Shown here piece by piece: positions 26,779 to 49,490 of a stretch of 64,000 nucleotides of DNA; within the stretch, counting starts at the first letter, position 1, and every line of letters begins with the position of its first letter. The DNA is from an uncultured Clostridia bacterium. Its GTDB lineage: Bacteria; Bacillota; Clostridia; UMGS1883. Position numbers and translations under genes: made by a program. Under the pieces are notes generated by a model. The model saw only the letters and a list, made by a program, of their open reading frames with translations, ran no database searches and was not told where the DNA came from. The stretch covers positions 1 through 64,000 of the forward strand of contig CANRCD010000008.1 in the NCBI GenBank assembly GCA_947629005.1. Reading direction: 5' to 3'.

Positions 26779-27450
26779 TCACTTTTCGGCGGAAATGCGC
26801 CGTCGCATTTCTTCCACTGCCTGCGGGTCGAGTCTCGGGGGCCCGCCCGCGCCGCGTTGGGCGGGCCTTTGCCCGCCCTCCTTTTTTGTTTCGAGAATTT
26901 TGGCGATATAGCTAAGCTTCGGCACGTTGTTCTCCGCCGCTTCGTTGATGGCGTAGCGGATGTCCTCCGGCGGGAGACCGTATGAAAACAGCCGCTTTTC
27001 GACGTTTGCGCTCCATTTGCCGATGAGCTCCGTGTAAAGCGTCCTTATACCGCTCCTTTCGGCGGCCGCGGCGACCTTGCTGCCGCCACCGCAGGCGGCA
27101 GCACAGTCATTATCATAGTCACTGTCATTATCACCGTCACTATCATAATCACTATCATTACCATGGCCGATATCAGTTGATTTCTGCTGATTTCCGCCGC
27201 CGCGGTTTCCGGCGAGAACGCGGCATTTTTTGCTGTACTTTTCGGCGTTTTTGTCAAGGTCAACCTTAATCATCATGAACGCCGCGAAAAGCGTGCCGCC
27301 CAGATCCCGCGCCGTAGGCACGGCCCCGCTTTCGTGGTATTCAAATATGGCCAGCATCAGCGCGCCGATTTCGGCCTTGGATAGGCCCATTTCGCGAAAG
27401 TATGTGAGATAGTCGGTTTTCAGTATGAATGTCGGCTTAGGCATCGCCAT
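26779..27450 (-). CDS. DUF6291-like phage protein with DnaD-like C-terminus
   Basis: A 223-residue phage-type protein. Residues 1-95 (TDYLTYFREMGLSKAEIGAL and following) resemble DUF6291, a domain of Firmicute prophage replication regions. A low-complexity linker rich in Asn, Asp, Ser, Gly and Tyr (about 97-118) is encoded by six-base-periodic DNA. The C-terminal part (about 140-190; YGLPPEDIRYAINEAAENNV, LSYIAKILETKKEGG) resembles DnaD/phage-associated helicase-loader domains. AGGAGG precedes the ATG. It is the last gene of the tail fibre/holin/endolysin unit, which is odd for a replication-type protein. Confidence 0.72.
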   Translation of the reverse strand: MAMPKPTFILKTDYLTYFREMGLSKAEIGALMLAIFEYHESGAVPTARDLGGTLFAAFMMIKVDLDKNAEKYSKKCRVLAGNRGGGNQQKSTDIGHGNDSDYDSDGDNDSDYDNDCAAACGGGSKVAAAAERSGIRTLYTELIGKWSANVEKRLFSYGLPPEDIRYAINEAAENNVPKLSYIAKILETKKEGGQRPAQRGAGGPPRLDPQAVEEMRRRISAEK

Positions 27451-27459
27451 TTTTCCTCC

Positions 27460-28353
27460 TTATTTTCCCGTCGCGTACCTGACGGCGTTTCTCACCATCG
27501 CGGCGGCCTCGGCGCGGGTGATAGGCTCGTCGGGGCGGAAGTTGCCGTTTCCGTCTCCGTGAACTATGCCCATCGCGGCCAGCTCGTCGATTATTTCCTC
27601 GGCCCAATGGCCCTCGGTATCGGCAAATTTTGCCACATCGTCCACCTCCTCGCTCGGCTCCTTCAGCAGCGCGGCCCACGTCAGCGGGCCGACGCTTCCA
27701 TCGACCTCGAGGCCCTGCTTTTCTTGAAAGCCCTTCACCGCCTCGAGCGTCGCGGGGCCGAAGCTGCCGTCAATTTCGAGCGAATAGCCCCATTCGTTGA
27801 GGCGGCTTTGCAGCTTTTTTACGGCCTCGCCCTTCGCGCCCTTCGTCAGCACGGGAGTGGAATTTTCCGCCTCGCCAAGCTCCGCGCGGACGAGGTTAAG
27901 GAAGTATTCCCAGCCGTAATCGCTCAGTATGCGGTGCGGGCAGTATTTGTCGCTGAAGTCCTGATGCTTCTTCACATGGGATATGTCCCAGCCGTGGTCG
28001 TTCAGCAGCTTCGCCGTGAGCTCGGCGGCGTTCTTCATCGCGGCCTCGAACCGCGCCCCGCCGCTTTTGCTGTAGCATATCTCGATAGCGATGTATCTGC
28101 GGTTCCCCGCGCCCTTGCCGCCGTCGCCCGCGTGCCAGGCGTTGCGGCTGTCGGGTATGGCGTGGACTATCTCCACGTCGTCCACGGCGTAGTGGTAGCT
28201 CGTCTGCGCGGTATTCCCGAGCATATAGCTCACCTCGGCGGCGGCGCTCGCGTCGTTAGCGGTGTTATGTATGCACACGCCTTCGGGCGTCATCTCGTAG
28301 GGGCATTTGGTTTTGTACTTCGAGGATGGGCAGAGCTTATCCTTAACCGTCAT
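27460..28353 (-). CDS. N-acetylmuramoyl-L-alanine amidase endolysin with peptidoglycan-binding and SLH domains
   Basis: A 297-residue lysin without a signal peptide, as expected for a holin-dependent enzyme. Domain order: Amidase_2/PGRP-type catalytic domain (about 15-150; VCIHNTAN and YCPHRIL carry zinc ligands, HYAVDDVEIVHAIPDSRNAWH is typical), a PG_binding_1 domain (about 170-230; AVKKLQSRLNEWGYS, DGSFGPATLEAVKGFQ) and one SLH domain (about 242-290; FADTEGHWAEEIIDELAAMG, FRPDEPITRAEAAAMV). The start overlaps the holin gene by 11 bases. A single SLH domain on an endolysin is uncommon and suggests tethering to secondary cell-wall polymer. Confidence 0.9.
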   Translation of the reverse strand: MTVKDKLCPSSKYKTKCPYEMTPEGVCIHNTANDASAAAEVSYMLGNTAQTSYHYAVDDVEIVHAIPDSRNAWHAGDGGKGAGNRRYIAIEICYSKSGGARFEAAMKNAAELTAKLLNDHGWDISHVKKHQDFSDKYCPHRILSDYGWEYFLNLVRAELGEAENSTPVLTKGAKGEAVKKLQSRLNEWGYSLEIDGSFGPATLEAVKGFQEKQGLEVDGSVGPLTWAALLKEPSEEVDDVAKFADTEGHWAEEIIDELAAMGIVHGDGNGNFRPDEPITRAEAAAMVRNAVRYATGK

Positions 28354-28765
28354 TTTCGCCGCCTCCCTTGCTTTTCAATACCTCCAGCACGTTTTTGATA
28401 ACCTCCGGCATAGGCACGCCGAGCAGGGCCGCGTTTTCCGCCACGGATATGAGCTCGTTCGCGAGAAAGCCGATTATGACGGTGTTGCGTACGTAATCGA
28501 GCTCCAGTACCAAATCAAGCCGATAGCCGATGAGCACCAGGAGCAAAATCACGACCTTCTTCGCGAGCCCCGTAAAGATGACCGCGCTGCTTATGCCGCC
28601 CTTTTCGGTCTTGGGCGATTTGCCGAGCCCCGCCGCCAAAAGGCCCGTCGCAAAATCGACGGCCATAAAAATGACCAGCGAACCGAGCGGCGCGTCCCAG
28701 CCGCCAAGGACCGACGCTGTGGCCGCCACCGCCATTCCGATTCCTGTGCAAATCACGTTTTTCAT
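28343..28765 (-). CDS. Phage holin (phage_holin_4 / Cph1-like)
   Basis: A 140-residue small membrane protein with about three hydrophobic segments, opening MKNVICTGIGMAVAATASVL and continuing with the conserved LVIFMAVDFATGLLAA stretch and a charged C-terminal tail. The ATG at 28765 is preferred because GGAGG lies 7-12 bases upstream; an upstream start at 28804 has none. Holins of this family form membrane lesions that release the endolysin. It sits between tail fibre and amidase genes, a normal phage lysis arrangement. Confidence 0.88.
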   Translation of the reverse strand: MKNVICTGIGMAVAATASVLGGWDAPLGSLVIFMAVDFATGLLAAGLGKSPKTEKGGISSAVIFTGLAKKVVILLLVLIGYRLDLVLELDYVRNTVIIGFLANELISVAENAALLGVPMPEVIKNVLEVLKSKGGGENDG

Positions 28766-28779
28766 TATATTGCCTCCGA

Positions 28780-30351
28780 TTATATTTCCACGACGCCGCC
28801 CCAATTATCATTGCCTATATACACCCACGTCGGCCGAGGCGGCGCAGGGTCGGCAAAGTGATTGTTGCGGAAGGAAATCATCTTAAACATCCAATAATCG
28901 AGGAGATTTACCTGCAATAATTCCTTGCCCTCGAACCACAGTCCCAGAGAATGATCGTAACTAAGCGTGGCGCAAGGCAAATAGCCGTTGTTGAAAAAAT
29001 GAAATATCATTCCGTCTTTGACCCAATCCGCGACGGGCATTGACCAATCGCCTAAGTCTATTACCCAGTCCTCGGTGAAATCTATCATTACTGAGCCGGC
29101 GTGCAGAGGGGCTTCAAAATCGTCGTCGCCCACGTCTGACGGAAGTTTTACGATGCCGTGGGGCGGGATAACGCGCCAAATGTAACGGTTTCCGTCCTTC
29201 TCCAAATGTACGTTGCCGGCGTAAATAGAGCGCAGCTGTGCGTCCGCCGACAATTTATTTTCAGTCACGGCCCCGTCGGCAAGTTTTTGAGCGGTCACGG
29301 CGCCGTCGGCGAGCTTTTGAGCAGTCACCGCCGCGTCGCGGATTTTGTCGGTGTTTATGGCGTTGTCAGCGATTTTTATGCTGGTAACGCACCCGTCCGC
29401 AATCTTATAATGAGTGACGCTCCCCGCCTGAAGTTTGGTTTCGCTGATGGCGTCGGCGGCGATTTTTCCGTTGGTAATGGCCTTGTCGGCGATTTTGGCG
29501 GTGGTAACGGCGCCGTCGCGGATTTTGCCCTCGGTCACGGCTCCGTCCTGAATTTTGGGCTGAGTAACGCTTCCTGCCTGAAGCTTGTCCGCGCTGACGG
29601 CCTTGTCGGCCAGCTCCGCGGTGTTGACCTGCCCGTCCATAATCATGGACGAATCAATCTCTCGCCAGTGCGTTTCCAGCTTATTGTTTTCGTATACCGT
29701 GACAAGCGCCTTGTTTTTTGTATCGGCGGGATTGATTTTGTTCAGCGTAACGGCCTTTTCGGCGATTTTGGCGGTGGTAACGGCGCCGTCGCGGATTTTA
29801 CCCTCGGTCACGGCTCCGTCCTGAATTTTCGGCTGAGTGACGCTCCCCGCCTGAAGCTTGTCCGCGCTGACGGCCTTGTCGGCGAGCTTGGGCTCGGTAA
29901 CCGCGTCGTCAGGCAGCATAGTGGATTTAATCGCGTCGCCTATTTGTTCATCGACGTATTTTTCCCACACATTGCGGGGCAGGGGAGGCACGTCCGCGCC
30001 GGTGACGGTTCCGGCAAGTACCTTGAGCCGCGCGGTATCGGTGGTTATACGGATATTGCCGCCGTCGCGGCCAACGGCTCCGAGCGTCAGGAAGCCGTCC
30101 TCGGTCAGAAGCGCCTCGGGAATTACTGCGGCGGCCGTGCGGCTGTCGTTCTCCGCCTGCGTGAGCGGCAGGGCGTAGCACGGCCCGTCGTTCACGCTGA
30201 GGGTCAGCTCCTTGCTGAGGCCGTCCCAGTCGCCGGTAAAAACGGCGCTCAGCTCGTAATAGTTTTTGCCTCCGCTGACAATGGCCGCCGGCTCCGTCAC
30301 ACATATACGGTCGTTGTCCACGCGGACGCTTACGGTTAATTTGCTGCTCAT
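28780..30351 (-). CDS. Phage tail-fibre/baseplate protein with tandem repeats
   Basis: A 523-residue protein. Residues 1-135 resemble the N-terminal baseplate-attachment domain of clostridial phage tail proteins. Residues about 145-375 consist of short repeats of the pattern G/K-A-V-T-x-x-K-I/L-A/Q-D, typical of trimeric tail-fibre shafts. The C-terminal 140 residues, beginning near NRYIWRVIPPHGIVKL, have no recognised fold and may be the receptor-binding tip. GGAGGAAAAA precedes the ATG. It is the first gene after the SOS-box promoter; no other tail, portal or capsid gene is in the window. Confidence 0.85.
   Translation of the reverse strand: MSSKLTVSVRVDNDRICVTEPAAIVSGGKNYYELSAVFTGDWDGLSKELTLSVNDGPCYALPLTQAENDSRTAAAVIPEALLTEDGFLTLGAVGRDGGNIRITTDTARLKVLAGTVTGADVPPLPRNVWEKYVDEQIGDAIKSTMLPDDAVTEPKLADKAVSADKLQAGSVTQPKIQDGAVTEGKIRDGAVTTAKIAEKAVTLNKINPADTKNKALVTVYENNKLETHWREIDSSMIMDGQVNTAELADKAVSADKLQAGSVTQPKIQDGAVTEGKIRDGAVTTAKIADKAITNGKIAADAISETKLQAGSVTHYKIADGCVTSIKIADNAINTDKIRDAAVTAQKLADGAVTAQKLADGAVTENKLSADAQLRSIYAGNVHLEKDGNRYIWRVIPPHGIVKLPSDVGDDDFEAPLHAGSVMIDFTEDWVIDLGDWSMPVADWVKDGMIFHFFNNGYLPCATLSYDHSLGLWFEGKELLQVNLLDYWMFKMISFRNNHFADPAPPRPTWVYIGNDNWGGVVEI
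29486..29905 (-). repeat. Internal duplication in the tail-fibre shaft
   Basis: A segment of about 135 bases at 29486-29620 recurs with few changes at 29752-29886. In the protein this duplicates a run containing ADKAVSADKLQAGSVTQPKI and its continuation. Such repeats can change shaft length by recombination. Confidence 0.7.
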
Positions 30352-30396
30352 TTTTTCCTCCTTGTGTAAATATTGGGGGCGTGGGGGGCGTTTAAT

Positions 30397-30412
30397 GCGA
30401 ACGTATGTTCGC
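30397..30412. promoter_or_regulatory. SOS (LexA) box
   Basis: GCGAACGTATGTTCGC contains CGAAC-N4-GTTCG, the Gram-positive SOS operator, with arms symmetrical over six bases. It begins 7 bases downstream of the -10 element of the cassette promoter, covering the expected transcription start, where LexA binding would block initiation. Confidence 0.85.
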
Positions 30413-30419
30413 TATTTTT

Positions 30420-30448
30420 ATATTACCATCCGAAAAGTACCGTGTAAA
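30420..30448 (-). promoter_or_regulatory. Promoter of the phage-derived lysis cassette
   Basis: On the minus strand TTTACA (30443-30448) and TAATAT (30420-30425) are separated by 17 bases. It reads into the tail-fibre gene and is immediately followed by the SOS box. A terminator for the upstream operon lies directly before it, so the cassette is an independent transcription unit. Confidence 0.75.
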
Positions 30449-30452
30449 GCAT

Positions 30453-30476
30453 AAAAAAATAACGGATTTCTCCGTT
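30453..30476 (-). terminator. Intrinsic terminator of the RG-I operon
   Basis: On the minus strand AACGGA-GAAA-TCCGTT is followed by ATTTTTTTAT. It ends the esterase/lyase operon about 70 bases after its last stop codon and insulates the downstream lysis cassette. Confidence 0.8.
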
Positions 30477-30545
30477 TCACGCCGAAAAAATCCGTAGATA
30501 TTGATGAAAAAATGCTTTTAGAAATTTGTGTGGTAGTTTAATTTT

Positions 30546-31427
30546 TCATTTGACGGCCGTCCGCAGCAGCTCTTCCGCAACCTTCGCGCCGATAAAGATG
30601 GCGCCGCGGTCGTTGGGGTGCGTTCTGTCGAGCTTGGGACTATGGTAAAACAGTCCCTCGGCCTCTTTTCCCATGCGGACGTAGGCTTCGCTTGTGTAGG
30701 CATGGAGGTCGATAAGCCCCGCGCCCGCCTCGCGTGCGGCCTCGCGTGCGGCCTCCGCGTAGCTGTCAAGGTAGTCGTTCAGCCGCCCGTCCACGTAAAT
30801 CAGGCGGTTTATGGGCGTGCATATAACCGGCCTTGCGCCGCGCTCCGCCGTTAGGCGGGCAAGCCTTATCAGGTTGTCCTTATAGCCGCCGAACGGCTTT
30901 AAGAAGCTCTGCTTTTGGTCGTTGTGGCCGAACTGAATCGCCACTGTGTCGCCTCTGCGCAGGCGGCTTTGCACCGGCGGAAAGTGGCAGGCAAGGCAGT
31001 CGGCTGTGTGCGTACCCTGCTCGGCGTGATTGCTGAGGGCATATCTGTCGCCGAGAAACAGCCCGAGCGTCTGGCCCCAGCCGCAGCAGCGCGTCAGCTC
31101 GTCCCCGCCCGCGTACTCTTGGTCGCAGACGGTGGAATCGCCGAGGCAGTATACGACCGGCAGCTCTGCTGGCTCGATTTCGGCGCTTACGCGGCAGCCG
31201 CCGCTTATTTCAAGCTCTATCCCGCCGTCCCTGTAGGGAGGGCGTTTTTGAAAATCGGCCTCCCGCACGGCGAGGGCAAAGCGGAAGTCTCTTGCCTCGC
31301 CCACGCGCAGGGGAAAGCTCCTCAGCAGAAAGCGGCGGTGGTTTGCCGTCACGGTGAGCGACGTGTTTTCCCGTGCCTCGGCGTGCAGCCGGAGCAGATA
31401 CTCGCCCTCGCCGAGAGCCCACCTCAC
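30546..31427 (-). CDS. SGNH/GDSL esterase (rhamnogalacturonan acetylesterase-like)
   Basis: A 293-residue protein starting at GTG 31427, which overlaps the stop of the large lyase gene (GTGA) behind GAGG. An N-terminal beta-rich part (about 1-95) precedes an SGNH hydrolase with the nucleophile Ser in CLGDSTVCD, block III QFGHND and the catalytic Asp/His in DRTHPNDRG. Arrangement and context match CE12-type acetylesterases that remove O-acetyl groups from galacturonate of RG-I. No signal peptide is visible, so it may act on imported oligosaccharides, complementing the secreted esterase domains upstream. Confidence 0.86.
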   Translation of the reverse strand: MRWALGEGEYLLRLHAEARENTSLTVTANHRRFLLRSFPLRVGEARDFRFALAVREADFQKRPPYRDGGIELEISGGCRVSAEIEPAELPVVYCLGDSTVCDQEYAGGDELTRCCGWGQTLGLFLGDRYALSNHAEQGTHTADCLACHFPPVQSRLRRGDTVAIQFGHNDQKQSFLKPFGGYKDNLIRLARLTAERGARPVICTPINRLIYVDGRLNDYLDSYAEAAREAAREAGAGLIDLHAYTSEAYVRMGKEAEGLFYHSPKLDRTHPNDRGAIFIGAKVAEELLRTAVK

Positions 31428-34400
31428 AGCTTTACCTCGCCGGCCTCGCCGAGGCTCAGCCACTCGTTGGGGCTGAGCGTGAGGGCAGTCTCGCCCGAGG
31501 AGAGCTCCGCCGTAACGGTGCGCTTTTCGGTGGAGCCGTTGTAAAGGCGCAGCTTATTGCCGTTCCTTAAAACGTACACTCCGTTAAGTATATCCGTAAC
31601 CTCGTAATATCCGTCCGTTTTTATCAGGCCCAAATCCGCCGCCGCGCCAACGAACAGCGAGCAGAGCTCCCGTGCTCCTGCAAAGGAGATGTGGAGCTTG
31701 TCGGCCATCTCGCCCGCCTCGGCGTTCCAAAGCTGATAATTCCGCGAAACGTAGTCGCGGCCCAGCTCGGCAAAGCGCGCGCCGGCTAGGGCGTAAAGGT
31801 CCACGTAGGCGCAGCCTGTTTCGGCGGCAACCTCGGCCACAGCGTCAAAAAAACCGCCGTTGTTGCCGTTGGGGGCCTCGTGCTCTCCCGCGCTGCCCCA
31901 AGTGTAGCCCACCGAGGGCTGAGGCTTCACAAGCACGGGCACGATTCCTTTTTTGCCGCACTCGTCTATCATGTAGCGCAGAGCGTCCTTCATAGTGTCC
32001 CTGCTCTTGTCGTCGCGGTTGCGGTCGTTTATGCCGAACTGAATAACGAGCAGGTCTCCCTTTTCGCCCTGTGCCAGAACCGTCGGGAAGATAACGTCCT
32101 TCCAGTCGCGGGCCCAGTCGCCGCTGGAGGCCAGATTGACGACCTCGGCGGAGTCGTCCGTGAATCGCGGCAAAAGCTGCGCCCAGCCGGTGCGCCGCTC
32201 TCCCGCCGGAATTTCGGCCTCGCGGACGTCGGGTATAACAGGGTAGTAATTGCAAAGGGTGGAGTCTCCGGCCACGAAGATACGCTTTTTGCGCGGCAGC
32301 ACGGAGGGTGATTTTACGGCCTCGACGGCTTTAAGCCGCGTAGTGCGCTGATCGACCCTGACCGCCGCGCCGCCGTCGGTCTTAAAGCCCCTGAAAACGT
32401 GAACCGTGCCCTCCGGCACGGCCACCGTGCCGTACATATCCACGTTGGCCCCGACAACCTGCGAATTGACATAGATGTTGCCGCGCTCGGCGTCGGCCTT
32501 GGTAAAGTAAAGGTCGTACTCTCCGGCGGGCAGGCCCAGCTCGTACTCGCCCGCCGCTGTGTCGATGCCGCCCTCGGGGGCGAAGCGGCGCACGGGAGTG
32601 ACCTCCGCCTCGGCGGGGCCGGAGGCCGAAATATTGATTTTGCCGCCCTGCGCCTCGGCGCGGACTATGGCCTCGCTCCCGCCCGCAAGCACGGTTTCGC
32701 CGTTCACGGCCACCGCCGCGCCCTCGGGGGAGTATATGGCCACGCTGAACTCATCAAATCTGCCGTAGGGGCGCACATCGAAGGCGTAATCCCCCTCGAA
32801 GGAGGCGGCCATCGAGTACCCGTCGGTGATTCGCGCCGCGAGGTCAGGCACACCGGCGAGGCCCGCGGCCACGATTTTGGCTATCTCAAACGCTCCCTCA
32901 TAGGAGTAGTGCGTGTTGTCGGCCACACCGTCGGGGTATTTTTCGTATTCGCCCGCGCCCGCGTAAAGGTGCAGCCGCTTTGAGGCCTCGGGGCCGAGGG
33001 CGTTTTCGAGCGCACGGCTTTCGGCGTTCACGTCTATGAAGGGCAGGCCGTACTTTTCGGCCATATCGCGCTGAATGGTGTCGTAGCTTGTTCCCCCGTC
33101 CGGCTCGGGTATGAGGCCGGAGCCTTCGTCAAACCAGCGGGGCTGAGTGTGCGAGGCGAGAATGGGTTTCAGCCCCTTGGCGAGCGCGGGGAGGACGTAC
33201 TCGTTTTCGAGCATGACCTCAAAATCTTCATGGCTGAGATAGCGTTCCGGCTTGTTCCACGCGCCGTCGTTGTGGCCGAACTGGATTATCACATAGTCGC
33301 CGGCGCGGGCGTCGTTAAGTATGGAGCCCCACCGGCCCTCGTCAAAAAAACTTTTCAGACTTCTTCCTGCCATGGCGCGGTTTTCCACCGTCACCGACCC
33401 GTCCATAAACAGCCCCAGCATCTGTCCCCAGCCCGCCTGCGGGGCGTAGCTGTCGCGGTACGACTGCGCGGTTGAGTCGCTCGCAATGAAGAGCGTCACC
33501 GGCTCCGGCGTTTTTTCGGCTGTTTCGGCCCCCGCCGCAAGGTAGGGCAGGGGCTCGCTTACGTATGTCATTTCAGGCAAATCTCCTCTTTTAACGGTAA
33601 TTTCGCCGCGCTCGCCGTCCCAGTCAACGATAAGGCCCAGCGCCTCGCCGAGGGCGCGCAGCGGCACGAGGGTGCGGCCGTTCACAATGACGGGCGGCGT
33701 TTCCATGGTTTTGGCCTCGCCGTTCACGGTGAAGCTCGCCGAGCCGACCGTCATTACCGCCGTTTTGTCGCCGAGCGCGGCGGTGACAACGCCGTTTTCG
33801 TAGTCCACCTTTGCGCCGAGGGCCTCTGCTATAAAGCGCAGCGGCACGAGAGTGCGGCCGTTTTCAACGTAGGGCGCGGCGTCGAGGACGCACGGCTTGC
33901 CGCAGACGCTCGCGGCGGCCGAGCCCGCTTTGAGCCGCGTCACTCCGGCGATGTAGCCGCCCAAATGCGGCGGCTGGTTATAGCTGGAATTCTGCCACAC
34001 AACGCCCATGCGGTAAATGTGGTCGCTCATCAGCGGCGGCAGGGCAAATTCCGTGGGAATAGTCGTGGTATAAAGGCGCAGGCACGAGCTGTCCGCGCTT
34101 CGCCACAAAATCTCCTCGCGCCAGTCGCCGAGGATGTCCGCCTGAAGGCAGGGGTTGGACTTGCTGCCGTTGTTCGAGACGCAGCCGTCGCGCGAGGCGT
34201 CGAGCAGCGAGCTTTGCGCCCCGTCGTCGTCAATCTTGAAAATCGACGTACCGTCCAGCAGCTCGTCGTACAAGTCGCCGTCCCAATAAATGCGGAAGTT
34301 CATGGAATTGAACGGCAAATCAAGGTTTTCGCCGAGGGAGTTTATCTTTCCGGCCCCGCTTCCGGCCCAAGCGATATAGCTGCCGCCGAAGGGGCCCACG

Positions 34401-36076
34401 CTCGCGATAAGGCCGCGGCCGGTATCCTTGCCGCCTTCGCGTGCGTGGAGAATTTCGCCTGTTTTCGCGTCAAAAACGGTAAAGCCGAATTTCTGCGCCT
34501 CCGTTTGGTCCTCGTGCACGGCGAACAGCTCCAGCCCGGGACGGTTCGGGTCGAAATCGCCGAGGTGCATTGCGTCGCCGTGGCCCATGAAGGAGCACCA
34601 CAGCACGCTGCCGTCGTCGTCCAGCGCGAGCGCGCCGGTGAAAATCTCGTCGCGTCCGTCGCCGTCGCAGTCGCCCACGCTGATGTTGTGGTTGCCCTGA
34701 CCGATGTATTTTTCGTTTCCGGCGTCTTGTGTATCAAAGCGCCAGAGCTTGGTTATTTCGTTGTTTTTAAAGCCGTAGGCCGCAATCACCGTGCGGCCCG
34801 GCCCCTTGCCTGCGCGGCCGCCGTAATAGCCGCGCTGAAAAACGACGTAAGGGTTCTCGCCGTCAAGGTACGCCACGCAGGCGTTGTAGCGTTCGGAGCG
34901 GTTGCCGTAATCGTCGCCGAAAACCAGCGAGCTCCCCGGGCCGTTCTGCGGGTCGAAGTCGGTTTTGGCCCGCAGTGCGCCGGTTTCGCCGTCGAACACC
35001 GTCAGCCAGATTGGGCCTTCGAGGTTTTTTCCGGCCCAGTTGTCCGTCCAGACGGCGTTTGCGTCGCCTATGACCGCTCCCGTGCCGTCAACCGTGCCGT
35101 CGGCGGTGCGGGTAGCGACCTCGGCTTTGCCGTCGCCGTCGAGGTCATAGACTACAAACTGAGTATCGTGTGCGCCCGCGCGTATGTTGGGGCCCATGTC
35201 CACGCGCCAGAGCCTTGTGCCGTCAAGCTCAAGAGCGTCAAGGTACACGCGGCCCGTTTTGCCCTGCTGCGAAGCGTCCTTCGAGTCGGAGGGGTCCCAT
35301 TTGAGGACTATCTCCCACTCGCCGTCGCCGTCAAGGTCGCCCACGGAGGCGTCGTTCGCGCTGTATGTCACGCGGCCCGCGGCGTTCTTGGCGGTCTCAA
35401 GGGCCTCGTCCGAGGGGGCGGCGCCGCTGTCGGTCAGCGAAAACGCCGTAGCGTCGGCCTTTTCGCTAAGGGTCAGCGCGCCGTCGGGCGAAAGGGCGAG
35501 GTAAAGCCCGCTCTGCTTGCCTTTTATGTACGTGTCGCCGGCTTCCCCCTCTATGGCGAATTTCTGATTGTCGCCGCCGTTATAGCCGTATACGCCAACC
35601 GATGCCCCCACAGCGGTGGACTGGGCGTTCACGTCCAGCGTTTTGCCGTCCGCGCCGATAAAGACGGAGCTTCCGTCCGCGTCGGTGTATACGCTCCACT
35701 CGGCCCCCGCCGAGGGCGAGGCTCCGCCCGCGCCGAGAGTTACACAGCGGAGATCCTTTTTAAGGTCGCCGTAATCCTCGGTCGGGACGGAGAGCGGGAT
35801 TTCGAGATATTGGCCGTTCCACACCGCGACGGGGGTTCCGTTCACGCTGTATTCGGCGGAGCCGTCGGCCCCGACGTCGGTGTAGTTGGTGAGCTCCGTC
35901 GTCGCGATGAGCTCTCCGTTCCGGCTGACGGTATAGCTTTCCGCGCCGCTTTCCATCGGCCACGAAAGGAACACGCCCTCCTCGGTTTTCACGGCCACGG
36001 GAGCGTTGTGCCCGTCGGCCAGCGCGGTCGGCGCAAGGGCCAGCAGAGCCGCCAAGGCTATCAGAAACCTTTTCAT
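31424..36076 (-). CDS. Secreted multi-domain pectinase: PL11 rhamnogalacturonan lyase, stalk domain and two SGNH esterases
   Basis: A 1550-residue protein with a signal peptide (1-21). A fibronectin-like domain (about 25-90) comes first, followed by a beta-rich insert resembling a ricin-type lectin (about 100-215). The PL11 eight-bladed propeller spans about 230-715, with Asp-rich calcium loops such as GDLDGDGEWEIV and DLDGDGKAEV and a GPFGGSYIAWAGSG segment. A copper-amine-oxidase-like stalk domain follows (about 725-830; two NGRTLVPLR motifs). SGNH domain 1 spans about 860-1090 (Ser868, GHND at 934-937, Asp1053/His1056). A beta-sandwich (about 1100-1230) separates it from SGNH domain 2 (about 1265-1490; Ser1272, GIND at 1348-1351, Asp1459/His1462). 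Inferred action: cleavage and deacetylation of RG-I outside the cell. GGAGG precedes the ATG. Confidence 0.9.
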   Translation of the reverse strand: MKRFLIALAALLALAPTALADGHNAPVAVKTEEGVFLSWPMESGAESYTVSRNGELIATTELTNYTDVGADGSAEYSVNGTPVAVWNGQYLEIPLSVPTEDYGDLKKDLRCVTLGAGGASPSAGAEWSVYTDADGSSVFIGADGKTLDVNAQSTAVGASVGVYGYNGGDNQKFAIEGEAGDTYIKGKQSGLYLALSPDGALTLSEKADATAFSLTDSGAAPSDEALETAKNAAGRVTYSANDASVGDLDGDGEWEIVLKWDPSDSKDASQQGKTGRVYLDALELDGTRLWRVDMGPNIRAGAHDTQFVVYDLDGDGKAEVATRTADGTVDGTGAVIGDANAVWTDNWAGKNLEGPIWLTVFDGETGALRAKTDFDPQNGPGSSLVFGDDYGNRSERYNACVAYLDGENPYVVFQRGYYGGRAGKGPGRTVIAAYGFKNNEITKLWRFDTQDAGNEKYIGQGNHNISVGDCDGDGRDEIFTGALALDDDGSVLWCSFMGHGDAMHLGDFDPNRPGLELFAVHEDQTEAQKFGFTVFDAKTGEILHAREGGKDTGRGLIASVGPFGGSYIAWAGSGAGKINSLGENLDLPFNSMNFRIYWDGDLYDELLDGTSIFKIDDDGAQSSLLDASRDGCVSNNGSKSNPCLQADILGDWREEILWRSADSSCLRLYTTTIPTEFALPPLMSDHIYRMGVVWQNSSYNQPPHLGGYIAGVTRLKAGSAAASVCGKPCVLDAAPYVENGRTLVPLRFIAEALGAKVDYENGVVTAALGDKTAVMTVGSASFTVNGEAKTMETPPVIVNGRTLVPLRALGEALGLIVDWDGERGEITVKRGDLPEMTYVSEPLPYLAAGAETAEKTPEPVTLFIASDSTAQSYRDSYAPQAGWGQMLGLFMDGSVTVENRAMAGRSLKSFFDEGRWGSILNDARAGDYVIIQFGHNDGAWNKPERYLSHEDFEVMLENEYVLPALAKGLKPILASHTQPRWFDEGSGLIPEPDGGTSYDTIQRDMAEKYGLPFIDVNAESRALENALGPEASKRLHLYAGAGEYEKYPDGVADNTHYSYEGAFEIAKIVAAGLAGVPDLAARITDGYSMAASFEGDYAFDVRPYGRFDEFSVAIYSPEGAAVAVNGETVLAGGSEAIVRAEAQGGKINISASGPAEAEVTPVRRFAPEGGIDTAAGEYELGLPAGEYDLYFTKADAERGNIYVNSQVVGANVDMYGTVAVPEGTVHVFRGFKTDGGAAVRVDQRTTRLKAVEAVKSPSVLPRKKRIFVAGDSTLCNYYPVIPDVREAEIPAGERRTGWAQLLPRFTDDSAEVVNLASSGDWARDWKDVIFPTVLAQGEKGDLLVIQFGINDRNRDDKSRDTMKDALRYMIDECGKKGIVPVLVKPQPSVGYTWGSAGEHEAPNGNNGGFFDAVAEVAAETGCAYVDLYALAGARFAELGRDYVSRNYQLWNAEAGEMADKLHISFAGARELCSLFVGAAADLGLIKTDGYYEVTDILNGVYVLRNGNKLRLYNGSTEKRTVTAELSSGETALTLSPNEWLSLGEAGEVKL

Positions 36077-37336: not shown

Positions 37337-39132
37337 TTCAACACCTCGCATATCGCAAGCAAAACTATGCCTATGCCGTGGGTATCGTTATCCCTCGGCA
37401 GCAGCTCGTATTTATAATAGTCCGGCGAAAAGGAAAACTCCGAGCCTCGGCACACGCCGTAAACGTTCCCCTCTTCGTCCACGCAGTTTTTAACTATGGA
37501 TTTCACCGCCCGCCGCGCCGCCTCGGCGTACTCCGCGCCCAAGAGGCCCAGCCGCGCTCCCCGCGCAAAGGCGCAGGCGAACATTGCGGTGCAGCTTGTT
37601 TCAAGGTAGGCCTCGGGGTCGTCCAGCACCTGACGCCAACGGCCGTCGGCGCTCTGACGCGCGATGTATCCCTCGCAAAGGAGCGTGAAAAGCCGCTCCA
37701 TCTCGCCGCGCAGAGCGTGATTTTTCGGCATCGCCAAAAGCAGCTCCGCAAGCGAAAACAACGCCCAGCCGTTGCCGCGCCCCCAAGCCACGCCGTTTTT
37801 TATCCCGTGGCGGAGGTCGAAAACATGGCTCATAAGGCGGCTTTCCTCCATGTACAAAAGCTCCTTGTACCGGCGAAGCTGATTTGCCGCGTCGAGCAGC
37901 GGGGCCTCGCGGCCTGTAAGCAGATACCTGCGGCATAGGAACGGCACGCTCATGTAAAGGTCGTCCAGCCAAACGGTGTCGTTGTGGAAGCTGTGCATTT
38001 GGTTTTTGCGGCAAAAGGCCCCGTTTTCAAGCCTCGGCTGTCGGTTTTCGATATAGTCCGCTATGTATTCGGTTATCTCCTCCGCGCCGGTAAGCCCCAG
38101 CGAGAGCGCCGCCTCCTCGATAAACGAGCCGAACGCGCCGCAGTCGTCAAGGCTGTCGATGCCGCAAAGCAGATTGTGCAGGCTCGCCGCTCCGCCGTGT
38201 GCGTCCCTGTCCCAAAGGGCGTAGGGGAAGGTTTCGACGCAAAGCTCCGCGTGGGCCTTCACGTAGGCGAGTATATCCCCGCGCCCAAGCGTCTCGCCCG
38301 CCTTCAGCAGGCCGTAAAGCGTCACCCCGAGGGGATAGCTCCAGCGGCCGAAGTTCCCCGCCGCGTAGTAAGGCCGCAGCCACATATCCTTATATTTGAA
38401 CCGCCAGTAGGTTCCGCCGGTCAAATGCCCGAAGTCCCTCGGCTCCGCCTCGGCCCTGAGAGGCCACAGCCCCAGCCACGGGCCGTAGCCCTCCGTTCCG
38501 GCCGGATTTACATAATCCCCGTCCTCGGGGAAGGCCGTCCCGCGAACGTAAACGTTGCGTCCGTCCTTTGCTTTGGCGTAAAACAGGGCGTATTCTCCCT
38601 CGGCGAGCTCCACCTCGGCAGGGGAGAGCTTCGGCAGCCACTCGCCGCCGTTTAGCCGACAGCGGCAGCCCTCGAGCCGAAGGTCGTCGGGCCGAAGCAG
38701 CAGATAGTCCCACTTGCCGAGCCACGTCCCGAACACCGCCCCGAAGCCCAGCGCGGTTTTTTTGAAAGTGAATTTAAGCGGGTTTACGCCCTTTTTCATG
38801 GGCAGATCAACGCGAATGGGAACGTGGTTGTTCCGTTCGGAAAACACGTCCGAGCGAAAGACTCTCTCGCCCCGAAGCTCCAGCACGGCGCTTCCAAGGA
38901 GGCTTATGCTCATGCCAACGAGCTCGTCCCTCTCGGCGAGGTACACGCACTCGGCCTCGGCCGTATCGCCCGCCTTCGCGTCGGGGAACAGCCTGTTCAT
39001 GTCGGCCATGTAGCGGTAATCGCTCCCTCGGCGGACGCCGCCGTCGAAAAAGGGGCGCGGCTCCGTCGGGTTTGGAGGGTTATCCCTTATGTATCTCGCG
39101 GCTATGAGCTCCGCCGCGCGCTTCAAGTCCAT
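37333..39132 (-). CDS. GH105 unsaturated rhamnogalacturonyl hydrolase with N-terminal extension
   Basis: A 599-residue cytoplasmic protein. The C-terminal about 360 residues form the (alpha/alpha)6 barrel of GH105, with TVWLDDLYMSVPFLCRRY, GVAWGRGNGWALFSLAELLL and YLETSCTAMFACAFARG. The WLDD motif carries the aspartate known as essential in YteR-type enzymes. The first about 240 residues form an extra beta-rich domain not present in the roughly 370-residue enzymes. It hydrolyses the unsaturated galacturonyl residue left by lyase cleavage of RG-I. It is the first gene of the operon and lies divergent from an AraC regulator; AAGGATGTGAGG precedes the ATG. Confidence 0.9.
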   Translation of the reverse strand: MDLKRAAELIAARYIRDNPPNPTEPRPFFDGGVRRGSDYRYMADMNRLFPDAKAGDTAEAECVYLAERDELVGMSISLLGSAVLELRGERVFRSDVFSERNNHVPIRVDLPMKKGVNPLKFTFKKTALGFGAVFGTWLGKWDYLLLRPDDLRLEGCRCRLNGGEWLPKLSPAEVELAEGEYALFYAKAKDGRNVYVRGTAFPEDGDYVNPAGTEGYGPWLGLWPLRAEAEPRDFGHLTGGTYWRFKYKDMWLRPYYAAGNFGRWSYPLGVTLYGLLKAGETLGRGDILAYVKAHAELCVETFPYALWDRDAHGGAASLHNLLCGIDSLDDCGAFGSFIEEAALSLGLTGAEEITEYIADYIENRQPRLENGAFCRKNQMHSFHNDTVWLDDLYMSVPFLCRRYLLTGREAPLLDAANQLRRYKELLYMEESRLMSHVFDLRHGIKNGVAWGRGNGWALFSLAELLLAMPKNHALRGEMERLFTLLCEGYIARQSADGRWRQVLDDPEAYLETSCTAMFACAFARGARLGLLGAEYAEAARRAVKSIVKNCVDEEGNVYGVCRGSEFSFSPDYYKYELLPRDNDTHGIGIVLLAICEVLK

Positions 39133-39154
39133 ATCCTCACATCCTTATTTTAAT

Positions 39155-39160
39155 TTTATA
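39155..39160 (-). promoter_or_regulatory. Probable -10 element of the RG-I operon
   Basis: TATAAA on the minus strand lies 23 bases before the GH105 start codon. I see no good -35 hexamer at 17 bases; the nearest (TTATAC, spacing 18) is poor. An activator-dependent promoter controlled by the divergent AraC protein would fit. Confidence 0.4.
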
Positions 39161-39223
39161 CCATCGGCGATAGGGCTTGTATAAGAATTTGTAGCCAAAA
39201 CATTTGATTTTGTGACATTTTTC

Positions 39224-39252
39224 TTGACAGCCCGCCCGTTTGGGGATATAAT
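39224..39252 (+). promoter_or_regulatory. Consensus sigma-A promoter of the AraC regulator
   Basis: TTGACA (39224-39229) and TATAAT (39247-39252) are exactly 17 bases apart, 42 bases before the AraC start codon. The strong promoter implies constant regulator supply. Confidence 0.85.
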
Positions 39253-39294
39253 TAATCTGTAAAATGCCGATATAATTTGCAGGGAGGCGTTTTT

Positions 39295-40098
39295 ATGCGA
39301 AAAACACAGGTAAACCGCTACCGTGACTTTGTGGATTTCAACGTGATACAGTACGGACACGAGGACTGTAGGCCAAACTACTCGATTGGTGATTTTGTGC
39401 GGTCGAACCACCTTATCCACTACGTTCACCGCGGGCGCGGCAGATACGTGTGCGGAGGCAAAACCTACTCCCTTTCCGCCGGCGACGCCTTTCTCATATA
39501 TCCGGGAGATGTGACATTGTATCAAGCCGACTCCGCCGAACCGTGGGAGTATAGCTGGGTGGAGTTCAGTGGGGCGGCCGCCGGTAAATATCTCTCCTCC
39601 ACGGGCTTCACGCGGGAGCGGCCCGTCATGCGCGGGGTGCACGGAGCCGCCGGCCCCATGCTGGCGCTTTCGGCCACCTCGCCCGATAACCCATACGAGC
39701 TGCTGGGCCGCCTTAACGAGGCGCTGGCCTCCTTTGTGACGGGCGAGCCGCAGCCGGTTTCCATGGCGGACGAATACGTAAAATACGCCCTTAATTATAT
39801 CCACACCATACATTACCGCAGCCCCGTCACCGTGGGCGAGATAAGCAGCTACGTGGGCATAAACCGCAGCTATCTCAGCCGCCTTTTCAAGGAGAAGCTC
39901 GGCGTTTCGCCAAAGCGATATATTACCGAGTTCCGCATGAAAACCGCCGCCCGCCTGCTCGAGGAAACGAACCTCACCATAGGACAGGTGGCTCTCAGCG
40001 CGGGCTTTGAGGATCAGCTCTATTTTTCGACCAGCTTCAAAGCCTTTTTCGGCCATAGCCCCACCCGCCATCGAGCTATGGCGAAGGCCGCAAAGTAG
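39295..40098 (+). CDS. AraC-family regulator of the RG-I operon
   Basis: A 267-residue regulator starting at ATG 39295 behind AGGGAGG; a TTG at 39277 overlaps that site and is rejected. The N-terminal cupin (about 20-130; LSAGDAFLIYPGDVTLY) probably senses a sugar. The two C-terminal HTH motifs are EISSYVGINRSYLSRLFKEK and QVALSAGFEDQLYFSTSFKA. It is divergent from GH105 and the rest of the pectin operon, the usual position of a local activator. Confidence 0.92.
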   Translation: MRKTQVNRYRDFVDFNVIQYGHEDCRPNYSIGDFVRSNHLIHYVHRGRGRYVCGGKTYSLSAGDAFLIYPGDVTLYQADSAEPWEYSWVEFSGAAAGKYLSSTGFTRERPVMRGVHGAAGPMLALSATSPDNPYELLGRLNEALASFVTGEPQPVSMADEYVKYALNYIHTIHYRSPVTVGEISSYVGINRSYLSRLFKEKLGVSPKRYITEFRMKTAARLLEETNLTIGQVALSAGFEDQLYFSTSFKAFFGHSPTRHRAMAKAAK

Positions 40099-40129
40099 TG
40101 AGCGCGAGTCGCGTTCCGCGGGTTGTCGC

Positions 40130-40200
40130 TGTGTAATGTAATAATGTCGCCCGAGCGGTCTGCCCCACACGCCGTCCGCTTTGCGGACGCGCCCGCAGGC
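40130..40200 (-). repeat. Inverted partial copy of the dispersed repeat tail
   Basis: Read on the minus strand this segment matches the 3' tail of the repeat at 1-170: GCGTCCGC...GCGGACG hairpin, then GTGTGG, GGCAGAC, and GGGCGACATTATTA. It faces the full copy at 40408-40602 in opposite orientation, so similar tails close both ends of a segment of about 475 bases. Confidence 0.7.
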
Positions 40201-40220
40201 TGCCGCCGCTGTGGTTGCTC

Positions 40221-40250
40221 AAAAGGCTTCCCCCTTGGGGGAAGCCTTTT
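40221..40250. terminator. Perfect hairpin AAAAGGCTTCCCCC/GGGGGAAGCCTTTT
   Basis: A 14-bp perfect stem with a TT loop carrying A and T tracts on both ends. It can act as a bidirectional terminator for the AraC gene, but the GCTTCCCCC/GGGGGAAGC core is also a module of the dispersed repeats seen in gut Clostridia. Confidence 0.65.
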
Positions 40251-40306
40251 ACTATTATGCGGGCCTTCTAATATCCATAGGGGCTACGGGCTGAAACACG
40301 GAAAAA

Positions 40307-40367
40307 CGCCCCTCATTCGGCCTTTCGGGCCACCTTTACCCCCCTCCGAGGGAAGGTAAGGCGAGGA
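40307..40367. repeat. REP-like module (CCCCTCATTCGG ... CCGAGGGAAGGTA)
   Basis: The order CCCCTCATTCGG, GGCCTTTCGGGCC hairpin, CCACCTTTACCCCCC and GAGGGAAGGTA follows the pattern of repetitive extragenic elements common in Oscillospiraceae-type genomes. I recognise the pattern from general knowledge and cannot count copies outside this window. Confidence 0.5.
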
Positions 40368-40378
40368 GATGTAAATAT

Positions 40379-40417
40379 AAAAAAATCCCACGTAAAATTA
40401 CATTCACGGGGATTTTT
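40379..40417. repeat. Inverted repeat AAAAATCCC ... GGGATTTTT
   Basis: A 9-bp arm AAAAATCCC (from about 40381) pairs with GGGATTTTT ending at 40417 across an AT-rich loop. It lies immediately before the full dispersed-repeat copy and overlaps its first bases. Confidence 0.5.
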
Positions 40418-40602
40418 AAGGGGCCCGCAGGCCCCTTAAACGCGTTGAGGGGTTTGGGGGCATCGCGGAGCCCCCAAGACTTTTGGTTCTTTTGGTCACA
40501 AAAGAACATAAGCATAAAATTAAATGCGACTGCCCGCGCCGAAGGCGCGTTCGCGAAGCGGATGGCGTGTGGAAGCACACCGCATAGGGCATAATTATAC
40601 AT
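40408..40602. repeat. Hairpin-rich dispersed repeat, copy 3
   Basis: From 40408 to 40560 this copy is collinear with 257-409 with three mismatches. It keeps the AAGGGGCC/GGCCCCTT, GGGGGC/GCCCCC and TTCTTTTG/CAAAAGAA hairpins. The tail (40561-40602) is more diverged but still ends in GGCATAATTATAC. The region 40099-40729 holds no credible gene. Confidence 0.85.
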
Positions 40603-40622
40603 CATCAACCTATGGCAAATAA

Positions 40623-40642
40623 CCCCTCATCAGTCGGCGCGG
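40623..40642. repeat. 20-bp repeat, reverse complement of 22336-22355
   Basis: CCCCTCATCAGTCGGCGCGG is the exact reverse complement of the copy upstream of glyA. It resembles the first half of the REP-like module at 40307-40367, so all three probably belong to one repeat family. Confidence 0.6.
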
Positions 40643-40729
40643 GCCTTTAATTACGCAAACAATATTTGCACGGCTAATCCCGCGGAGCGTATTAGGCAAG
40701 GGCCGTGGGAGCGCACTGCGCTCCCCTGC

Positions 40730-42781
40730 TCAGTCCTTTATCAGCGGCATGGGTTCGTCCCCGCCGAGTCCCTGCACGGCCAGATTGTACGCCGCCGCAT
40801 AGGCCTCGCCGTAGGTGAGGGGCCGCCGAGGAGCGAAGCTGCCGCCGTCGCCGCTCATGATTCCCAGCCCCTGAAGCACGGCCGCGCCGCCGACGCCGCC
40901 CACAAAATCAGCCTCGTCGGCAAATTTCACGGCGAATACGTCAAGGCCGACCAGCGGTTTCCAGCCGAGAGCCGTCATTATCAGCTCCGCCGCGCCCTCT
41001 CGGGACGGAACGTCGGAATTTCTTTCCCTGTCCACATCGGCCCCGCCGGTTTCAAAATAGTAATATCGGGACGGCATATTGCTTATGTTTATGGCTTGGC
41101 GCACAAGGCTCATAAAGTCGTCGCAGGCTATGTTGTCGTCAAACGAGTAGCCGCCGGGGACATAGATGTCATTTTCGCGCAGAATGTCGTAAAACGGCCA
41201 CGCCCAGTGCTCCTTTTCGGCGGGCTTTTCGGCGGCGGCTTCGGGGGCCGCGCCCGTGTAGTCTATGGCCGAGCCGTCCTCTGCCTTGACGGCGTAAAGG
41301 TCGGCGTTGGGCTTAAGCGCGTAGCTTAATACGGGCTTGCCCTCGGCGCTGTAGCTGTAGACAAGCTCGGCGGTGAAATTGTTTTTCGCCGCCTCAAGGG
41401 CGCTCACCATCGAGGCGGGAGTGATTATTTCGGCCTCGGGGTCGCTTTCGGAGAAGTAGACCACCTTGCCGGTGCGCTTCGACACATTCACGCTCTTGCT
41501 GTCGTCGGGGTATGGAATTCCGCCGATTACGCGCTGCCAGCTTTTGCGGAAGAAGGTTTTGCTGCCCGCGCCGTTATTCGTTTCGGCGTAGGCCGAAAGG
41601 TCGCGCGTTTTGGCCATAAAGCTTGTGGCGGCGCGGGCGCAGTCCTCGTCCGAAACGGGGTTTTCGGGAACGCTCCACATATCGTCGTAGGAGATGTCCA
41701 CCGACTTAAGCTCGCCGCTTATGCCGTCGAACCTAATGTCGGCGCTGCCGCGCGCCTCGTCCGCGCCCCATTCGCAGCGGGCCGAGGCGTAGTAGGTCGT
41801 TTCGGCCCCTTTGGTATAGGAATAGTAATTGACCGATAAGTCGTATTCCGCCGGAAGGTCAAGCTCGGGCAGAGCGCGGAGCCTCGCGGCAATATCGTCC
41901 TTCGAGATAAGCCCCTTCATTGCTTCGACGGCGGCCTGCTCCTTGGGGCTCAGCGACTTGCGCAGGGCTTGGCCCGCGTTCGAGCCGCCGCCGCTGTACT
42001 CCTCGGCGGCCGCGTCCATATCCATAGAGGCGGAGGAGTTGAATATGGACGAGCGGAAGTATCCGCGCTCAAAAATCGAGCCGTCGGCCGCGTCCGCGCG
42101 GAGCCCGTTTTGCGGCACGTAGATAGGGAAGGCCACGGGCTTCGCCTCGGCTTCGGCGTCCGTATACTCGGGCCAAAACGTGTGGTACTCAAGCTTCAGC
42201 GCGCCCTCGGCGAGGGCCTCCAGCCCCTGCTCGGGAGTGAGCGAGGCCGAGCCGGAGAAGGTGTTTTCCGTATCGTAGCTGAGGCTGTAATCCCGCACCT
42301 TGCCGCTTTGGCGGTTAAAGTAGACGGACGCGCCGTTGTCCTCCACGCGGGCGCCGTTCTCGCGGCGCACAAACGCGGCGCGGCGGCCCGTGCTGTTTTC
42401 CTCGTCAAGCGTGAGGCTCGCGGCGGCCTCGGGGGCTGTGCGGCCCACAAAGTCCTTCGCGCTCTGCCACAGAGCGGCGCGGCGGACGGTTGAAAGCCCG
42501 CGCTCGGCTTCGTTGTCGTCGTATCGGCTGTATTCGGTGATAAGGCCGTCCTTCGTCACGGTTGCCTGAAGGCTGCCGCTTCCGTCGGGCTTGGACCAGC
42601 GCAGCTCGTAGCCGCCCTCGTAGTCGTTGTAGCTGAACTCGCTCAGCTCCTCGGGCACATCTATGGCCTCCTTTACGAGGACAATGGCGTCCTCGGGCGA
42701 GAGGGCCGCCTCCGCCGCGGGCGAGGGTACGGCGGGGATAAGCATTGCCGCCGCGAGCATGGCCGAAATCATTTTTTTCAT
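40730..42781 (-). CDS. Secreted YcdB/YcdC-repeat protein with SLH-like C-terminus
   Basis: A 683-residue exported protein with a signal peptide (about 1-26, ending PSPAAEAA). Residues about 27-220 and 290-500 form two YcdB/YcdC-PepSY-like alpha/beta repeats (LSPEDAIVLVKEAIDVPEEL; VSDEDCARAATSFMAKTRDL; SKRTGKVVYFSESDPEA). The last about 150 residues have weak SLH-like units (HWAWPFYDILRENDIYVPGG; PRRPLTYGEAYAAAYNLAV), suggesting wall attachment. Family members are found with sporulation and envelope functions, but the role is unknown. The promoter (42834-42860) looks ECF-type. AAGGAGG precedes the ATG. Confidence 0.78.
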   Translation of the reverse strand: MKKMISAMLAAAMLIPAVPSPAAEAALSPEDAIVLVKEAIDVPEELSEFSYNDYEGGYELRWSKPDGSGSLQATVTKDGLITEYSRYDDNEAERGLSTVRRAALWQSAKDFVGRTAPEAAASLTLDEENSTGRRAAFVRRENGARVEDNGASVYFNRQSGKVRDYSLSYDTENTFSGSASLTPEQGLEALAEGALKLEYHTFWPEYTDAEAEAKPVAFPIYVPQNGLRADAADGSIFERGYFRSSIFNSSASMDMDAAAEEYSGGGSNAGQALRKSLSPKEQAAVEAMKGLISKDDIAARLRALPELDLPAEYDLSVNYYSYTKGAETTYYASARCEWGADEARGSADIRFDGISGELKSVDISYDDMWSVPENPVSDEDCARAATSFMAKTRDLSAYAETNNGAGSKTFFRKSWQRVIGGIPYPDDSKSVNVSKRTGKVVYFSESDPEAEIITPASMVSALEAAKNNFTAELVYSYSAEGKPVLSYALKPNADLYAVKAEDGSAIDYTGAAPEAAAEKPAEKEHWAWPFYDILRENDIYVPGGYSFDDNIACDDFMSLVRQAINISNMPSRYYYFETGGADVDRERNSDVPSREGAAELIMTALGWKPLVGLDVFAVKFADEADFVGGVGGAAVLQGLGIMSGDGGSFAPRRPLTYGEAYAAAYNLAVQGLGGDEPMPLIKD

Positions 42782-42833
42782 GGTTCGTTCCTCCTTGTGA
42801 GTATATTCGGGAATATTATGCTTACCTGTAATT

Positions 42834-42860
42834 TAGACGCAAAAGCGGTAAAAAAGTTCC
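42834..42860 (-). promoter_or_regulatory. Putative ECF sigma factor promoter of the YcdB/YcdC gene
   Basis: On the minus strand GGAAC (42856-42860) and CGTCTA (42834-42839) are separated by 16 bases, with a T-run after GGAAC. This matches the general ECF pattern and is almost the same as the promoter at 51417-51443, including the following AATTA. Confidence 0.75.
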
Positions 42861-42886
42861 GTATATTTTATATTTTTTTGAAAATT

Positions 42887-44035: not shown

Positions 44036-44718
44036 AGTCCCGAGACCTCCTTGAACGCGCGCGAGAGCCAGTCTGTGTCCTCGTCGTCGTTGTTTAAGTT
44101 AACGTTTTTCGCTTTGTCCACGCGGTAATTCATGGCGTAGGCGGCGTTGTGTATCTGCCATTCGCCCACCATGCTGTCGAGAGTGCGCTCCCAGTCGGTA
44201 GGGTAGAGCTCCTCATGGTCGAGCAGGATTTTGCATATACGCCGAATAAGGGCGGAATTGTCGGCCCGATACGAGTCTATGACCACGAATTCGGGGTCTG
44301 AATTTGTGCGGCTGTCCAGCACAACGTAGTCGTTGTCGGTTATGGAAAGGGGCTCTCGGTCAAGGCTTTTTTTCACTATGTATACGTTCCCCGCAAACTC
44401 CTCGTATCTTGTGACGCTTACGCGGAAGGGGTAGGTGTAGATAACGCCGCCGTGCGTGTAGTCGTACTCCCCATCCGGGAAGGGTATGCCCGTCAGCGAG
44501 AGGTTGCGTTCGTAGAGCTTGTTCATGGAGATAAGGTCGCCCCTCTCCTCGGCCTCCTGAAACAGGGCGTAAAGCTCTCTGTCGTAGCTTTCCGGTACGT
44601 CAAGGGATGGTCCGTCCGCCGTTATGGGGCGGCGCAGCTCGGCGCGGATAAGGATAACCGCCGCCGCCGCAAGAATTGCCGCAATGCAGACGGCAAGGAT
44701 TATTTTCGGGTTTTTCAT
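44032..44718 (-). CDS. Unknown membrane-anchored protein
   Basis: A 228-residue protein with an N-terminal hydrophobic anchor (about 5-26) and a soluble extracytoplasmic part with no motif that I recognise. The soluble region is acidic and mixed alpha/beta (GGVIYTYPFRVSVTRYEEF; NDYVVLDSRTNSDPEFVVID). It overlaps both neighbours by 4 bases, so it is firmly part of the DUF2264/MFS operon. Function unknown. Confidence 0.7.
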   Translation of the reverse strand: MKNPKIILAVCIAAILAAAAVILIRAELRRPITADGPSLDVPESYDRELYALFQEAEERGDLISMNKLYERNLSLTGIPFPDGEYDYTHGGVIYTYPFRVSVTRYEEFAGNVYIVKKSLDREPLSITDNDYVVLDSRTNSDPEFVVIDSYRADNSALIRRICKILLDHEELYPTDWERTLDSMVGEWQIHNAAYAMNYRVDKAKNVNLNNDDEDTDWLSRAFKEVSGL

Positions 44719-46508: not shown

Positions 46509-46643
46509 GGGGTTGTCCTGCCTTTCCATATAATTTGCTAATTATATTATAATAATAAACGGCCCTGCCGTCAAGAATAAATAGGAATTTTTTAAGCAAA
46601 TCTTGAACGGTTTGTTAATTTCCCCGAAGGGCAATAATAACGG

Positions 46644-46672
46644 TTGACAACCGTCCGAAAAAGTGGTAAGAT
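46644..46672 (+). promoter_or_regulatory. Putative sigma-A promoter of secA
   Basis: TTGACA (46644-46649) and TAAGAT (46667-46672) are separated by 17 bases. The region 46509-46733 between the divergent DUF2264 and secA genes contains nothing else that I recognise. Confidence 0.7.
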
Positions 46673-46733
46673 ATAAACGTGAAATTGTGCTTATTAAAGT
46701 AAAACTATGCTTATCAAAGAGGAATGAACAAAA

Positions 46734-49490
<2,757 letters not shown>

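Follow-up and report, generated by a model that had tools for sequence, protein, structure and literature searches.

A tail-fibre and lysis cassette in the genome of an uncultured clostridial bacterium is probably the second operon of a vertically inherited, bipartite particle system that derives from a siphovirus, has been domesticated, is linked to the SOS response and resembles a gene transfer agent (GTA). The cassette consists of four minus-strand genes (fibre, holin, amidase and DUF6291) that form a single transcription unit at 26779–30448 of the window, the whole 64-kb stretch of DNA analysed here. The window belongs to the genome designated G000, in which the cassette is on contig C8 and a cluster of head, packaging and tail genes is on contig C7. 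The genomes compared, including those of the eight species of the genus, are drafts, and at least some are metagenome assemblies.

The fibre and lysis cassette

The four genes of the unit proposed in the initial annotation were all recovered by hmmscan and PHROGs searches (Table 1), as were, by position and sequence, the promoter, the LexA box and the terminator that it had placed upstream of them. The N-terminal ~135 residues of the fibre are conserved across the cassettes of the genus and are followed by tail-fibre repeats. No solved relative of this N-terminus was found, and a single-sequence structure model of it had a pLDDT of 34. The likely start of the holin is the ATG at 28765, which has a ribosome site, rather than the upstream TTG at 28804. 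The DUF6291 gene is part of the cassette only in G000 and in its sister species G004. A 39% homologue of the window's DUF6291 protein precedes the terminase genes of a prophage in G005 (L077:5981–6811).

Table 1. Features of the cassette (window positions) and of the structural operon (contig C7) in G000
Feature	Position	Strand	Length	Evidence or remarks
DUF6291 protein	26779..27450	-		hmmscan; weak DnaB_2/DnaD-like C-terminus, of phage replication-module type
Endolysin	27460..28353	-	297 aa	hmmscan: Amidase_2, PG_binding_1 and SLH domain
Holin	28343..28765	-	140 aa from ATG	hmmscan: Phage_holin_4_1, E 3e-33
Tail fibre / receptor-binding-type protein	28780..30351	-	523 aa	PHROGs: tail-fibre repeats
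LexA box, perfect	30398..30411	-		CGAACATACGTTCG; just downstream of the -10
Cassette promoter	30420..30448	-		TTTACA-17-TAATAT, extended -10; sequence TTTACACGGTACTTTTCGGATGGTAATAT common to structural operon
Terminator-like hairpin	30462..30495	-		sets the cassette apart from the upstream operon
Run of 16 same-strand structural genes	C7:37770-49414			gene calls on L036 (C7:30000-49999)

As far as the gene calls read by eye show, the rest of the window consists of ordinary chromosomal genes. No further phage genes were recognised in these calls over the 64 kb, in agreement with the initial annotation, and searching the same stretch for Rfam families and tRNAs gave no matches. Upstream of the cassette, positions 31424–36076 encode a giant, secreted-looking multi-domain protein of 1550 aa, which by eye is of polysaccharide lyase or esterase type. 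The cassette had been described as being without a phage; this is true of the window but not of the genome, in which a complete head-and-tail cluster with the same promoter is found on another contig.

A structural gene cluster on a second contig

Contig C7 of G000 contains an 11.7-kb cluster of siphovirus type (37661–49414) with terminase, portal, capsid and tail genes. It begins with a gene for a 97-aa treble-clef-like protein, followed by the terminase, portal, small head proteins, Gp15, scaffold, major capsid, connectors, tail tube, tape measure, Dit, a Tal/Gp37-like protein and a 282-aa tip protein, after which comes the host gene comFC. Family searches back the terminase (Terminase_3, with a gp3/TerS-like N-terminus), portal (1e-102), scaffold, capsid (8e-104), connectors, tape measure, Dit and Tal, while the tail-tube and tip proteins were assigned by position.

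The gene calls of the C7 cluster include no lysis, integrase, repressor or replication genes, and the cluster stops just short of where fibre, holin and endolysin would come. In L044, a prophage on G003:C18 and thus in the same genus, the homologue of the 282-aa protein (fib282) comes directly before that of the cassette's fibre; next are two small proteins and an amidase with 70% identity. Because the two homologues are adjacent in this prophage, the split between the C7 cluster and the cassette falls at the junction of tip protein and fibre. Neither locus is at a contig end; they lie on different contigs, at least ~61 kb apart, and both are flanked by host genes.

The small and large terminase subunits are naturally fused in the product of one gene (L036:8061–9656), and the fusion is kept in five species. 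Its first ~120 residues can be aligned with small terminases that are separate proteins in prophages (L300, L075). For its C-terminal nuclease, the best solved relative is 2wbn, the large subunit of a terminase. The leading 97-aa gene was considered as a small terminase and ruled out, since its product is treble-clef-like and the small-terminase part sits fused to TerL. The family to which the terminase belongs suggests headful packaging.

A promoter common to both operons

In an alignment of upstream regions, the promoters of the structural and lysis operons are alike in the -35, the extended -10 and the intervening spacer; mean identity between the operons is 0.72 in the spacer, versus 0.22–0.27 in the flanks. 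Across the genus (eight genomes), TTNACANNGNANNTTTNGGRTG, the pattern that describes this unusual promoter sequence, is matched exactly at 10 sites; every one belongs to one of the two operons, and the reversed control has no match. It is present at both operons in G000, G003, G006 and G007, at the structural operon only in G002, and at the lysis operon only in G004. The pattern was written from eight of the ten sites, leaving out the G007 cassette site, and it predicted this promoter, which had not been looked at before. No third locus with the shared promoter is among the exact matches in the genus; allowing one mismatch adds one site, on G002:C106, which is probably due to chance. Ninety genomes outside the genus have 3 matches. 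The 78 hits in viral contigs are read as chance, because the collection is huge and no related phage cluster adjoins them.

LexA boxes

The cassette's box is the sole exact match to CGAACNNNNGTTCG in the window, and counts of sites with one mismatch equal chance. Genome-wide, CGAACNNNNGTTCG has five sites in G000, no more than the reversed control. Since pattern counts do not exceed reversed controls, the box is credible by its position and perfection, not by its frequency. Two of the five sites fit the stricter pattern CGAACRNRYGTTCG: the box in the window and one at C7:37702, just upstream of the terminase gene. The same type of box lies upstream of lexA (C2:205546) and uvrB (C5:63734) in G000, and in both operons a box of this, the organism's own, type overlaps the promoter. 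A box also precedes the gene for a conserved 437-aa protein (G000:C6:42534, L107, and relatives), which is radical-SAM DNA-repair-like and seems to be a core SOS gene of the genus.

All five structural promoters in hand have a LexA box just after the -10. Lysis promoters with a LexA box are confined to G000 and its nearest sister, G004, and the G004 box is not independent evidence, because it falls in an 851-bp near-identical tract at the end of a metagenome contig. The predicted sites support LexA/SOS control of both operons in G000. LexA control of lysis would have been gained in one branch or else lost in the others. Judged by these sites, the genus as a whole has a dedicated control that serves both operons, and the promoter sequence they have in common is more widely conserved than the lysis LexA box.

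Conservation and selection

Of the eight species of the genus, seven have the structural cluster (by its capsid gene) and six the cassette (by its holin). The draft genomes in which the cassette was not found are those of G001 and G002, and that in which the structural cluster was not found is G005. The structural gene order, with the box, is identical in five species; the G002 copy runs off its contig inside the tape measure, and the clusters of G001 and G004 are partly assembled. Both halves are present, apart from each other, in five species (G000, G003, G004, G006 and G007), with intact frames and constrained genes. In G007 there is no amidase after the cassette holin. A 75% homologue of the amidase stands alone at another locus of G007 (C2:35749–36771; L049:8750–9772), without the shared promoter.

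Between G006 and G007, dN/dS of 16 structural genes ranges from 0.04 (capsid) to 0.26 (tape measure), and between G000 and G004 it is 0.04–0.26 for the ten assembled structural genes. Three of the cassette genes, for which the initial annotation had proposed a test of purifying selection, are also constrained, with a dN/dS of 0.12–0.15 for the holin, 0.14 for the amidase and 0.19 for DUF6291. Synonymous divergence is comparable to that of the host gene lepA (0.32–0.99 versus 0.59 between G000 and G004). A tree of the concatenated structural proteins (FastTree) has the same unrooted topology as one of six host proteins, an agreement that with five taxa has a chance of 1 in 15. The genes downstream of the cluster are the same in G001 and G003, and the neighbours are others in G000 and G002, so that the location of the cluster is only partly conserved.

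Among 391 genomes of the class there are few close terminase matches outside the genus. One is in an unsplit, stand-alone cluster of similar type, ca. 14.5 kb from terminase to holin, between host genes in a member of another family of the class (G194:C9, L298:1598–16051). It encodes a BppU_N fibre, an endolysin with Amidase_3 and NAGPA domains, small holin-like proteins and a capsid of another family, and is possibly an unsplit counterpart of the present system. A broken remnant is found in G034, and the matches in G298 and G339 are prophage-like. In viral contigs there are relatives of the capsid (59–67%) and of the terminase (50%, with portals at 26–28%); the present structural cluster was not found in the viral contigs searched. 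The closest phage capsid proteins, with 64% identity over the whole protein, are those of the Clostridioides phages phiC2 and phiCDKH02, which, unlike the present cluster, are complete phages of ca. 56 kb.

Fibre variation and exchange with prophages

The fibres of G000 and G004 have a common N-terminus and differ in their C-terminal part. An 851-bp tract that covers the promoter and the fibre N-terminus (window 29780–30630; L041:10980–11830) is 99.5% identical between them, versus 82% for the remainder. Given its place at a metagenome contig end, the tract may reflect either a recent exchange or a chimeric contig. A second amidase gene in G000, at the end of a contig (C21:1654–2547, L039), appears to sit in the lysis module of another prophage. 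It is 91% identical to that in the window, and parts therefore seem to pass between true prophages and the cassette.

Nature of the particle

Several features of the system are those of a GTA. The phage-derived head, packaging and tail genes are chromosomal and vertically inherited, as indicated by their presence in most species of the genus, the congruent tree and purifying selection. The genes for self-propagation (integrase, repressor, replication) are absent from the gene calls at both loci, and the DnaD-like DUF6291 gene in the cassettes of G000 and G004 is the one ambiguous gene. Under the proposed mechanism, both operons would be held off by LexA and by whatever reads the shared promoter. 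DNA damage would lead to RecA-driven cleavage of LexA and both operons would come on together; heads would be filled with DNA in the headful manner, the fibre from the cassette would be added to the particle, and holin and amidase would burst the cell. As neither an integrase nor a repressor nor a phage replication module accompanies the structural genes, most of the DNA in the particle would be expected to be that of the host, as in a GTA.

The initial annotation had suggested that the cassette was a domesticated lysis device triggered by DNA damage, releasing a toxin, vesicles or a tailocin, or else the last piece of a prophage. Domestication, the SOS link and lysis on behalf of particles encoded elsewhere are supported by the C7 cluster, the shared promoter, the LexA boxes and purifying selection. 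A headless tailocin, or a free-standing device that releases toxin or vesicles and makes no capsids, would agree with a cassette that stands alone in the window with fibre and lysis genes only, but it is extremely improbable: the sole other operon with the promoter encodes terminase, portal, scaffold and capsid, the head genes that a tailocin lacks, and these are kept and constrained. A prophage in decay, or one recently split by a rearrangement or an assembly break, whose parts persist by chance or are rescued by other prophages, is very unlikely. Real prophages with related fibre, holin, amidase and capsid genes do occur in the genus, but the halves are apart in five species, their frames are intact and their genes constrained, and the structural tree is congruent with that of the host; the conservation of both halves throughout the genus, under purifying selection, speaks against a last piece of a prophage. 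We give as little credence to an active temperate phage or satellite with integrase and replication genes at a third locus. The DnaD-like gene in two of the cassettes would be in keeping with one, but no third locus has the promoter, host genes flank both known loci, and the gene calls at these two loci include no integrase or repressor.

A killing particle like PBSX, unlikely in our estimation, is a more serious alternative. The same bipartite particle would be made on DNA damage and would deliver no DNA; its fibre would target and kill relatives, making it a bacteriocin with a head. The same genes and the same SOS link would be expected, the replacement of the fibre C-terminus between sister species is what would be seen for host-range or killing specificity, and PBSX has been described as acting in this way (PMC12946183). 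The strong constraint on terminase, portal and capsid (including the low capsid dN/dS), which are dispensable for killing, speaks against it, but weakly, because PBSX itself keeps all three. Sequence cannot choose between DNA transfer and killing of this kind. In its fullest form, the GTA-like reading is of a functional two-operon siphovirus-type GTA of Clostridia, wired to the SOS response through its own two-site promoter regulon, with a fused terminase, carrying host DNA out of damaged gut bacteria into healthy ones and evolving its host range by swaps of the fibre end. We put this forward tentatively, as a possibility with somewhat less than even prospects.

Comparison with known systems

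RcGTA and other alphaproteobacterial GTAs have a chromosomal siphovirus-type structural cluster and further co-regulated genes at other loci. The present system differs from them in phylum and regulators; the likeness is one of organisation, and homology is not claimed. PBSX of Bacillus subtilis occupies one locus and has a repressor of its own. As compared by description, it is likewise a Gram-positive, SOS-linked defective phage particle without self-propagation, whereas here there are two loci, neither has a repressor, and the late promoters themselves bear LexA boxes. In PMC12946183, PBSX is called GTA-like and is also said to act like a tailocin.

The FpGTA of Faecalibacterium has two separated operons, I for packaging and head and II for fibre/receptor-binding protein, holin and endolysin; it has no replication genes, is nearly ubiquitous in the genus, and its particles have been shown to contain ca. 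9 kb of DNA (PMC12946183). It is, by analogy, the closest precedent, with the same two-operon division of labour. Both are found in gut clostridia and both have head and packaging apart from fibre and lysis (here on C7 and C8), a likeness in gene content and arrangement. FpGTA is podovirus-like with a separate TerS, whereas the present element has all the parts of a siphovirus-type tail (tube, tape measure, Dit and Tal), a TerS-TerL fusion, and a visible shared promoter and LexA boxes. A literature search, the coverage of which excluded most subscription journals and preprints, turned up no description of the present element.

Implications

To our knowledge, very few GTA systems are known outside the Alphaproteobacteria. 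The Gram-positive systems named in PMC12946183 are PBSX and FpGTA only. A second two-operon element in Clostridia, with another particle type, suggests that the splitting of a late operon into particle and fibre/lysis halves may be a repeated route of domestication. The two-site promoter provides a concrete, testable regulon and a handle for searches. Through the SOS link, the exchange of DNA by way of capsids would be coupled to DNA damage in the gut.
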